From the NCBI GenBank assembly GCA_002839375.1, contig PGXY01000012.1, forward strand, positions 8,430 to 72,429: a stretch of 64,000 bases of DNA, written 5' to 3'. The stretch comes from Spirochaetae bacterium HGW-Spirochaetae-1. GTDB taxonomy: Bacteria > Spirochaetota > UBA4802 > UBA5550. The first letter of the stretch is position 1; every line of letters begins with the position of its first letter. Below are positions 569-4,204 of the stretch, in pieces. Below the pieces are notes generated by a model that ran no database searches, had not been told where the DNA came from, and was given only the letters and a program-made list of their open reading frames with translations. Both the position numbers and the translations under genes were made by a program.

Positions 569-921
569 TGAGATTCAAAGTAGACGAAAACCTGCCCGTT
601 GAAGTCGCCCGCCTGCTTCGTGAAAATAGTTAAGACGCGCATACTGTTCATGAAGAACACATGACAGGGGCCCGTGATGAAGATATTCTCGGAACCTGCA
701 TGCAAGAGGAAAGAATACTGATAACGCTTGATCTTGATTTTGCAGATATCCGGAACTGCCCTCCCGGAGAAACTCCGGGCATCCTGGTCATAAGAATGAA
801 TAAACAGGATAAACGAACGATAATAGATACTGTAGCCCGCCTGTTGAAAGTAATCACAAAAGAACAGGTCGCCGATAAACTGTGGATTGTGTAAGAAAAC
901 AGGATAAGAATACGGGAATAA
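568..921 (+). pseudogene. DUF5615 PIN-like toxin, interrupted by two in-frame TAA codons
   Basis: From the ATG at 568 the frame reads MRFKVDENLPVEVARLLREN, the typical DUF5615 start with its conserved acidic residue. It meets TAA at 631-633 where relatives usually have a His or Tyr before DAHTV. The same frame continues with family-like sequence (DAHTVHEEHMTGARDEDI, ITLDLDFADIR) to a second TAA at 892-894. It then runs on with ENRIRIRE to a third TAA at 919-921, matching the usual family C-terminus. There is no frameshift, so the gene was lost by point changes and probably recently. An internal ATG at 661 could start a 77-residue fragment, but that would lack the first active-site strand. The normal toxin role is presumed ribonuclease activity blocked by the DUF433 partner. 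Confidence 0.8.
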
Positions 922-1553: not shown

Positions 1554-1948
1554 AATATCTGCTGGATACCAATGTATGCATTAAATACCTGAACGGCGAA
1601 TCGGATAAAATCAGGCAAAAGTTATCGTCCATAAGGCCGGAACATGTGGCCGTTTGTTCCATAGTACGCGCATAACTTTTCACGGGCGCCTATAAAAGCA
1701 AGTCTTTCGTGAAGACCTATAAGAAACTGAATACCTTTCTTGAAGTCTTTCCATCACTTTCCTTTGACGATGAGGCGTCAGAGATTTACGGGAAAATAAG
1801 ATCACGTCTGGAAAAGTCGGGACAACCAATCGGACCGTATGATCTGCAAATAGCCAGCCTTGCCGTGTTAAATAATTTGACCCTGGTGACGCATAACGTA
1901 AAGGAATTCTCGCGGATCAAAGAACTAAAGATCGAGGATTGGGAATAA
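1550..1948 (+). pseudogene. PIN-domain toxin (VapC-like) with one in-frame TAA
   Basis: The frame starts MKYLLDTNVCIKYLNG, the PIN-domain strand carrying the first catalytic Asp. It runs to SIVRA and meets TAA at 1673-1675. The codon lies where VapC proteins have the conserved acidic residue of the RAELFYGA motif, so GAA to TAA is the simplest change. The same frame then continues LFTGAYKSK and later PIGPYDLQIAS (third and fourth acidic sites) and THNVKEFSRI to a normal stop at 1946-1948. Apart from the nonsense codon the protein is complete at 132 residues. An internal ATG at 1709 gives a 79-residue piece lacking the first two catalytic acids, so activity is unlikely. The family normally cleaves RNA. 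Confidence 0.85.
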
Positions 1949-2601: not shown

Positions 2602-2907
2602 ATGGGAAAGAAAAATCTCACAATTGAAGATATAAGAAAAGTATTAGCACTGCATAGAGATGCTCTTGAAGCACAATATGGAGTTCTTGAGCTTGGCCTG
2701 TTCGGCTCCATGGTCAGGGGAGAGGCTGATGAAAAAAGTGATATCGATATACTGGTATCATTCAGCAAAAATATCGATTATTTCGATTTTCTTGATTTGG
2801 AAGAATCTCTTGAAAAGCTGCTGGGAATGCCCGTCGATCTGGTTGAAAGGAGGGCGCTCAAACCGTATATCGGTGAACGTATACTAAACGAGATGGTAAT
2901 TCTGTGA
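2602..2907 (+). CDS. MntA-type nucleotidyltransferase antitoxin
   Basis: A 101-residue minimal nucleotidyltransferase with the signature GSMVRGEADEKSDIDILVSF, i.e. G-S followed by D-x-D, near residues 36-55. MntA proteins transfer AMP to the HEPN partner toxin HepT and neutralise it. The C-terminal part (VDLVERRALKPYIGERIL) is also typical of the family. The start at 2602 follows GGAGAAAAAGC; the stop overlaps a GTG start for the HEPN gene (GTGA at 2904-2907). The gene is intact. Antitoxin assignment comes from family and the adjacent HEPN frame. Confidence 0.85.
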   Translation: MGKKNLTIEDIRKVLALHRDALEAQYGVLELGLFGSMVRGEADEKSDIDILVSFSKNIDYFDFLDLEESLEKLLGMPVDLVERRALKPYIGERILNEMVIL

Positions 2908-3302: not shown

Positions 3303-3476
3303 AGAAAGCCCTCTCATCTGAAAGAGATCAAAACTCGAAGTTTTAGTGTCGAGCGCGGACAGGAGGTCCACCATGGAATTCCGGTCAGAGAGCCCTCTCC
3401 ACGGAGGAGTTAGCGCGCGACCCACAGGATGTGGGAAGTGTCTGTGGAGCCACGGATGGCGAGAACAGACGCGGAG
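3303..3476. repeat. Mosaic repeat, copy E, abutting tRNA-Val
   Basis: The first half (about 3310-3400) matches copy B, including CGAAGTTTTAG, GTCGAGCGCGG and AGGAGGTCCACC. The second half (3400-3476, GAGTTAGCGCGCGACCC to CAGACGCGGAG) matches copies A and D, so this copy is a recombinant. It stops seven bases from the 3' end of the tRNA-Val gene. AGGAGGTCCACCATG inside it looks like a ribosome site and start, but the frame behind it gives no recognisable protein. Confidence 0.8.
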
Positions 3477-3483
3477 ATCTTCT

Positions 3484-3556
3484 TGGGCGCTGAGGGGATC
3501 GAACCCCCGACCCTCTGCTTGTAAGGCAGATGCTCTCCCAGCTGAGCTAAGCGCCC
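3484..3556 (-). tRNA. tRNA-Val (anticodon UAC)
   Basis: The minus strand folds as a standard cloverleaf. Acceptor arms GGGCGCT and AGCGCCC pair fully. The D arm is GCTCAGCTGGGAGAGC and the anticodon stem CTGCC/GGCAG-like with loop CTTACAA. The T arm is GTCGGGGGTTCGATCCCC-like, followed by discriminator A. The anticodon TAC reads valine codons. CCA is not encoded. The first ten bases overlap the end of the HU-family gene, whose stop codon is tRNA bases 8-10. The 3' end faces the repeat/TA island. Confidence 0.93.
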
Positions 3557-3831
3557 GTTTTGTTGTTTTCTCTTTCAGTAGCCTTGCTGCCCCGGAAGGC
3601 CAGCATTTTTTTCGCCGGAACTTCAAGAATTCTTCCGGCGATGGGGGAATGAACTTTTCTGGCTTTCTTGTCTGCCTGGTAGAAGGTGCCGAAGCCCCTT
3701 ATTTCCACCTGCTCATTCCTGTCTGTACATTCTATTATCTTTTCAAGGAAGGTGTCTATTATTTCAAGAACTTCCTTTTTTTTTAAGCCCCTTTTCAAAG
3801 ATATCAGGTTGACTATGTCAGTTTTAGTCAA
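3547..3831 (-). CDS. HU/IHF-family DNA-binding protein
   Basis: A 94-residue histone-like protein. TKTDIVNLIS opens the helical dimerisation part, and VEIRGFGTFYQADKKARKVH is the beta-arm region with the family's GFGxF signature. HU and IHF proteins bend and compact DNA as dimers. The start is TTG (3829-3831), since no ATG fits the family's N-terminus. The gene lies 12 bp after rpsT and its stop codon (TAG at 3547-3549) lies inside the tRNA-Val gene, so rpsT, HU and tRNA-Val are probably one transcript. Cleavage by RNase P at the tRNA 5' end would remove the stop codon from the message. HU versus IHF cannot be settled by eye. Confidence 0.92.
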   Translation of the reverse strand: MTKTDIVNLISLKRGLKKKEVLEIIDTFLEKIIECTDRNEQVEIRGFGTFYQADKKARKVHSPIAGRILEVPAKKMLAFRGSKATERENNKTGA

Positions 3832-3843
3832 GAGGATACCCTC

Positions 3844-4128
3844 TTATGCTTGTGTCTGTTTGAGTACGTTGTTGATCTTCTTTGCTATTCTTGATTTTCT
3901 GCGCGCGGCTGTGTTTTTGTGCAAGGTTCTTTTAGCGGCAGCTGCGTCTATAGTGCTTGAGAACTGGGTGAAAAGGGTTGTGAGTTCTTCAGCGTTTTTT
4001 TCTTTTGTGTCAAGAGCCTTGTTAACTTTTTTAGACGCAGTTCTTATGGCTGATTTGTCCTGCGTGTTTTTCTGTCTGCGTTTCTCGTTCTGACGATTAC
4101 GCTTTTCCTGTGATTTAGTGTTTGCCAA
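3844..4128 (-). CDS. rpsT: 30S ribosomal protein S20
   Basis: A 94-residue, very basic, helical protein beginning MANTKSQEKRNRQNEKRR and ending in a Lys/Gln-rich tail. The second half (TLHKNTAARRKSRIAKKIN) is characteristic of S20, a primary 16S rRNA binder of the small subunit. The start codon is TTG (4126-4128) behind AGGTAGTATACA. A UUG start for rpsT is also known in Escherichia coli, where it takes part in autoregulation. It is first in a short operon with the HU-family gene and tRNA-Val. Confidence 0.96.
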   Translation of the reverse strand: MANTKSQEKRNRQNEKRRQKNTQDKSAIRTASKKVNKALDTKEKNAEELTTLFTQFSSTIDAAAAKRTLHKNTAARRKSRIAKKINNVLKQTQA

Positions 4129-4175: not shown

Positions 4176-4204
4176 AATATGTGAGCAGACATAAAAACTG
4201 TCAA
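4176..4204 (-). promoter_or_regulatory. Sigma70-type promoter for rpsT-HU-tRNA-Val
   Basis: On the minus strand TTGACA (4199-4204) and CATATT (4176-4181) are 17 bp apart. They lie about 50-75 bp before the rpsT start. The -35 is a perfect consensus and the -10 matches at four of six positions. Confidence 0.6.

Follow-up and report, generated by a model that had tools for sequence, protein, structure and literature searches.

An HU/IHF-family gene (hup) of Spirochaetae bacterium HGW-Spirochaetae-1 ends inside the tRNA-Val(UAC) gene that follows it, and its relatives in the Spirochaetota keep the HU stop codon either at the same bases of the tRNA or just in front of it. We interpret this as an operon, rpsT-hup-tRNA-Val, in which termination of HU translation and RNase P cleavage at the tRNA would exclude each other and the cut would end HU synthesis; we put the probability of this reading at roughly 0.55. 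The locus lies on the minus strand of the window, by which we mean the whole 64,000-nt stretch that was analyzed (contig PGXY01000012.1, positions 8,430 to 72,429), and contains the following features.

3484..3556, minus strand: tRNA-Val(UAC), 73 nt, CCA not encoded; ARAGORN tRNA-Val(tac), RF00005 match G000:C12:11913-11985
3547..3831, minus strand: hup, HU/IHF-family gene (PF00216), 94 aa, TTG start
3547..3549, minus strand: TAG stop of HU, equal to U8-A9-G10 of the tRNA-Val, read from the sequence
3557..3571, minus strand: A-rich 3' coding end of HU, the would-be 5' leader of the pre-tRNA, recognized by its A content (35/36 loci)
3844..4128, minus strand: rpsT, encoding ribosomal protein S20, separated from HU by 12 nt; S20 is upstream in 37/37 HU-tRNA loci
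4176..4204, minus strand: promoter-like TTGACA-17-CATATT upstream of rpsT; the same or a similar site occurs in many relatives
3309..3326, minus strand: weak terminator-like hairpin in repeat DNA behind the tRNA; such sites number near the shuffled mean

The HU frame (3831-3547) runs ten bases into the tRNA on the same strand and closes with the TAG at 3549-3547. With the tRNA placed by ARAGORN at 3484-3556 on the minus strand, this confirms the claim of the initial annotation that the HU stop codon is made by tRNA-Val bases 8-10. Solely the tail of HU is encoded by tRNA sequence, and its last two residues are Gly-Ala. HU matches PF00216 with 76.6 bits (cut-off 22.4, E 1.8e-21), residues 1-86 aligning to profile positions 1-86 of 90, and most of the matched HU/IHF chains of known structure align to about residues 81-91 of the window HU. 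Thus, what extends into the tRNA is merely a dispensable-looking tail. Since the protein scores below every NCBIfam equivalog cut-off for IHF or HU subunits, we claim neither name for it.

We searched 46 genomes of the window's order (Spirochaetota) for this HU at a threshold of E <= 1e-8. It is present in 36 of them, and tRNA-Val(UAC) lies directly behind it in 36/36. A 37th case comes from a genome of another family of Spirochaetota (G049). In one locus (L006) the tRNA runs into Ns and the start alone is visible, so the terminator and frame counts refer to 36 loci; in another (L015) the ARAGORN position of the tRNA start was corrected by sequence. Counted from tRNA base 1, the HU stop begins at +8 in 18 of the 37 cases, and elsewhere at -1 (1 case, which shares G1), -2 (4), -4 (2), -5 (5), -6 (4), -7 (2) or -8 (1). 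The overlap proper, with the stop at U8-A9-G10, therefore recurs in 18/37. In the other 19 it is absent, yet the stop is found upstream at a distance of 0-6 nt from the tRNA or, once, shares its first base; despite the deep divergence within the order, no gap is longer than 6 nt. The initial annotation had proposed that HU translation and tRNA maturation compete, and had looked to conservation of the overlap in relatives. Because 19/37 stop upstream but always near, the competition idea should rest on the closeness of stop and cut site and not on overlap alone. The distribution indicates that conservation concerns not the overlap itself but the distance between stop and cut, which stays within half a ribosome footprint, and that the HU-tRNA layout is real and old. 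Carriers of the pair include, among the matches listed, the Spirochaetes MAGs RBG_13_51_14, HGW-Spirochaetae-5 and ADurb.Bin218. To our knowledge, none of these spirochaetes is in culture.

The remaining 10 of the 46 genomes are without this HU. Two of them (G024 and G033) have rpsT followed by tRNA-Val, and in the eight others our searches turned up no match to the HU and none to the tRNA patterns. The HU of G049 sits on a very long branch, groups with paralogues in the tree and is absent from all 7 other genomes of its family; a common origin with the overlap of the order is no more than possible. In a scan of named genomes, 12 spirochaete loci among the 80 loci listed have a tRNA-Val that overlaps or lies within 5 nt. 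Among the 68 listed loci from outside the spirochaetes, none is followed by a tRNA-Val within 400 nt, and a different tRNA lies 66-308 nt downstream in 6 of them.

We compared the locus with the other tRNAs of the same genome, taking 46 distinct tRNAs (47 RF00005 hits) with their upstream frames. The HU-tRNA-Val pair is the sole overlap with a recognized protein family, and the other recognizable same-strand upstream genes stop 31-88 nt before their tRNA. For a few short or unplaced ORFs near these tRNAs (stops at -7, -14, 21 and 37) no family match was found. By these comparisons, the HU-tRNA-Val overlap is more than chance. Bases 8-10 had initially been described as nearly constant in tRNAs. 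This does not hold for tRNAs generally, with TAG at these positions in 22/46 of the genome, but it does hold for this tRNA-Val (36/36).

The reading frames of the tRNA restrict where an overlapping gene can end. Two frames of this tRNA-Val are free of stops, and the third first stops at bases 8-10 (36/36). Each of the 18 HU genes that overlap at +8 enters the tRNA in this sole stop-bearing frame; the HU frame ends at tRNA bases 8-10 in 18/18, and no tRNA is nested. A frame that entered the tRNA otherwise would read through the whole tRNA, because the other two frames hold no stop. This single-stop-frame rule may extend to other tRNAs with UAG at these positions.

We consider the three genes most likely to be one transcript, with the tRNA transcribed from the rpsT side, because S20 precedes HU throughout, few promoter-like sites lie before the tRNA and a terminator-like hairpin often lies behind it. 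For promoters we counted, over the 130 nt upstream of the tRNA, matches of 9 or more out of 12 to a sigma-70-type consensus, with mononucleotide shuffles as reference; one locus with under 100 nt upstream (L245) was dropped. Such a match is found in 4/37 HU-linked loci and 3/21 loci with S20 and without HU, as opposed to 27/28 loci of family f15 and 29/42 other stand-alone tRNA-Val loci. The four HU-linked loci (L029, L142, L004 and L030) are counted against the operon explanation. Upstream of S20, a promoter-like match occurs in 22/37, often as TTGACA-17-CATATT or a close form. A terminator-like hairpin with a T-run lies within 110 nt of tRNA position 71 in 20/36 loci, compared to 2.5% in shuffles. 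Sequence evidence thus favors the shared transcript on which the initial annotation had made its argument conditional. Behind the tRNA-Val of the window we found no clear terminator; a dispersed repeat lies there, with a single weak terminator-like site. In two relatives (L007 and L152) a T run follows immediately 3' of the tRNA, as if the tRNA's own 3' hairpin were the terminator.

The same data make it improbable that most of the tRNA comes from a promoter of its own within hup, which would render the overlap irrelevant to HU. The window does contain promoter-like sites within hup, TAGACA-18-TAGAAT (3758-3729) and a weaker candidate (3786-3758), both beyond the 130-nt stretch used for conservation, and L029 has a match of 10 of 12. 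Against this, the mean promoter score of the 130 nt before the HU-linked tRNA is 6.4, below the 6.9 of shuffles and far under that of stand-alone tRNA-Val. The genome is a draft in 14 contigs, which would allow for a misreading, with HU a pseudogene or the assembly in error; this is scarcely credible, since the stop position is identical in 18 species and the HU domain is intact up to the tail. Chance or assembly error as the origin of the pair is ruled out by the relatives.

In the proposed mechanism, the tRNA-Val would form the 3' end of the rpsT-hup-tRNA-Val transcript. A terminating ribosome covers about a dozen bases past the stop codon. A ribosome terminating HU would then cover part or all of the 5' strand of the acceptor stem, together with the D stem in overlap species, so that HU termination and tRNA folding with RNase P cleavage would be mutually exclusive. 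When RNase P cuts at the 5' end of the tRNA, overlap species would lose the HU stop and be left with a nonstop HU message. In the near species the stop would remain, separated by 0-6 nt from the 3' end created by the cut, except for one case in which its last base would be lost. After the cut, no more productive synthesis of HU would take place on the transcript and tmRNA would take over the stranded ribosomes, so that each transcript would give HU in a limited burst, along with a single tRNA-Val. Trans-translation drops sharply with longer RNA 3' of the stalled site, and release factors compete with it at stop codons (PMC3985003). Because of these two properties, we expect the overlap and near layouts to act alike after exonuclease trimming. 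The nonstop product itself does not appear essential, because 19/37 keep their stop outside U8-A9-G10.

The components that this requires are present in the genome of the window, where we found RNase P RNA (RF00010, 306 bits) and tmRNA. The last 15 nt of HU contain 52% A, compared to 33% in the gene body, and are richer in A than the body in 35/36 loci. In most loci, predictions that include the flanking sequence show the tRNA folded and hardly paired with the HU end. An A-rich end that in most loci does not pair with the tRNA suits cleavage, as far as composition and predicted folds indicate; the A-rich tail may be a mere reflection of Lys/Asn codons. We also considered, and rejected, a switch based on base pairing of the HU end with the tRNA, since such pairing is mostly negligible in the predicted folds. 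The exceptions are L010 and L011, where predicted pairing breaks the acceptor stem in context; L027 and L029 are predicted to form the stem only weakly. A stronger version of the mechanism makes RNase P a one-shot off switch across this spirochaete order, with the terminating ribosome shielding the tRNA and cleavage destroying the HU message. We regard this version as tentative and, on present evidence, rather unlikely. If true, the dosage of a nucleoid protein encoded in a ribosomal-protein operon would depend on the maturation of tRNA-Val, on how efficiently RF1 terminates at UAG-C and on how active translation is.

The most serious competitor is tolerated compaction, which we consider plausible while leaning against it. 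It too assumes a shared transcript: deletions would have trimmed the spacer, the in-frame TAG of the tRNA would end the HU frame each time a stop further upstream disappears, and no regulation would follow. The loss of the stop would be cheap, with HU made before cleavage or in excess. Several observations fit this. The overlap state toggles at least 7-9 times (parsimony gives 9 changes over the 37 linked rows, and starred branches force 7-8). These counts are rough, as the HU tree uses 93 columns, leaves many forks open and has an unsettled bootstrap. The close pair L004/L009 differs in state. Stops of the non-overlapping genes fall in several frames, and therefore indels must have reshaped the HU tail. 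The genome of the window also has two further PF00216 genes, with no tRNA in the ~3.3 kb loci around either, which makes tolerance of the loss of an HU message easier.

What compaction explains less well is the spacing, which stays within 6 nt in 37/37. In loci that lack HU and have rpsT as the immediate upstream neighbor of this tRNA, gaps range over 1-128 nt, with 2/21 at 6 nt or less and overlap in 0/21, a comparison with the HU-linked gaps that ignores shared ancestry. These HU-less arrangements (L161, L162, L211 and L213-L230) come from families f6, f34 and f11. Judged by these loci, rpsT-tRNA-Val is an older linkage in Spirochaetota, and the tight spacing is tied to HU and not to the tRNA. 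Moreover, 13 of the 18 overlap loci are one substitution away from a TAG at -1 to 1 that would spare the tRNA, and just 1/37 uses such a stop. Since this near-miss stop is hardly used and the spacing is limited, the overlap must at a minimum be well tolerated, and the short distance seems to be maintained. The 18 overlapping and 19 near loci, toggling between close relatives, form a natural, phylogenetically replicated set. It suits tests of translation termination against RNase P competition on one RNA, and of tRNA excision as the end of a message.

Our search of the open-licence PMC literature found no report of this HU-tRNA overlap. The closest precedent appears to be selB/selC. There, tRNA-Sec is nested in or overlaps selB and a nonstop mRNA after tRNA processing was proposed; the overlap is conserved and not essential, some relatives gained an upstream stop, and Dyella/Luteibacter have partial overlaps with a fixed stop position at nt 46-48 (Mukai 2021, PMC8124441). 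Both systems are thus same-strand bacterial mRNA/tRNA overlaps kept in relatives, with escapes by upstream stops. The HU case differs in having an ordinary elongator tRNA, an unrelated nucleoid-protein gene in an rpsT operon, a 10-base overlap with a U8-A9-G10 stop, and the strict 0-6 nt limit in non-overlapping kin. It would be the same kind of conflict with another gene, another tRNA, another geometry and stricter spacing. The same article mentions animal mitochondrial gene/tRNA overlaps, such as tRNA-Lys within cox1 of Armadillidium (PMC8124441). There too tRNA excision conflicts with the integrity of the message, but in a compact organelle genome with other processing enzymes.

Similarities to two further arrangements concern the operon and not the overlap. 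The E. coli secG-leuU transcript resembles the one predicted here in that a protein gene precedes a tRNA in one transcript and a terminator is close behind. Mohanty & Kushner 2008 reportedly found that this and other mRNA-tRNA transcripts are cut by RNase P, and, by the title of their work, a nearby terminator is said to inhibit RNase P; the secG stop is said to lie outside leuU. In Borrelia, the S20 gene presumably adjoins an HU-family gene (rpsT-hbb), which would make it a like S20/HU-family pair in a spirochaete; nothing linking rpsT-hbb to tRNA-Val was found in the open-licence literature. Annotation that forbids CDS-tRNA overlap could truncate or drop genes such as this hup.

The DNA behind the tRNA-Val contains a dispersed repeat of ~127 nt. 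Three copies lie in the window at 1-127, 2384-2510 and 3329-3455, and shorter pieces at 1017-1144, 2083-2136 and 3323-3400. The copy just behind the tRNA-Val may have replaced the operon's terminator. The same region encodes an MntA-like nucleotidyltransferase (2602-2907, plus strand), just under its NCBIfam cut-off, followed by a HepT-like ORF (PF01934; 2904-3191, plus strand) that matches the family's first part only and looks frame-broken. A DUF433 gene adjoins a DUF5615 gene (287-568 and 661-894, plus strand), and a PIN-domain fragment is found nearby (1709-1948, plus strand); these three are toxin-antitoxin-like genes amid the repeats.
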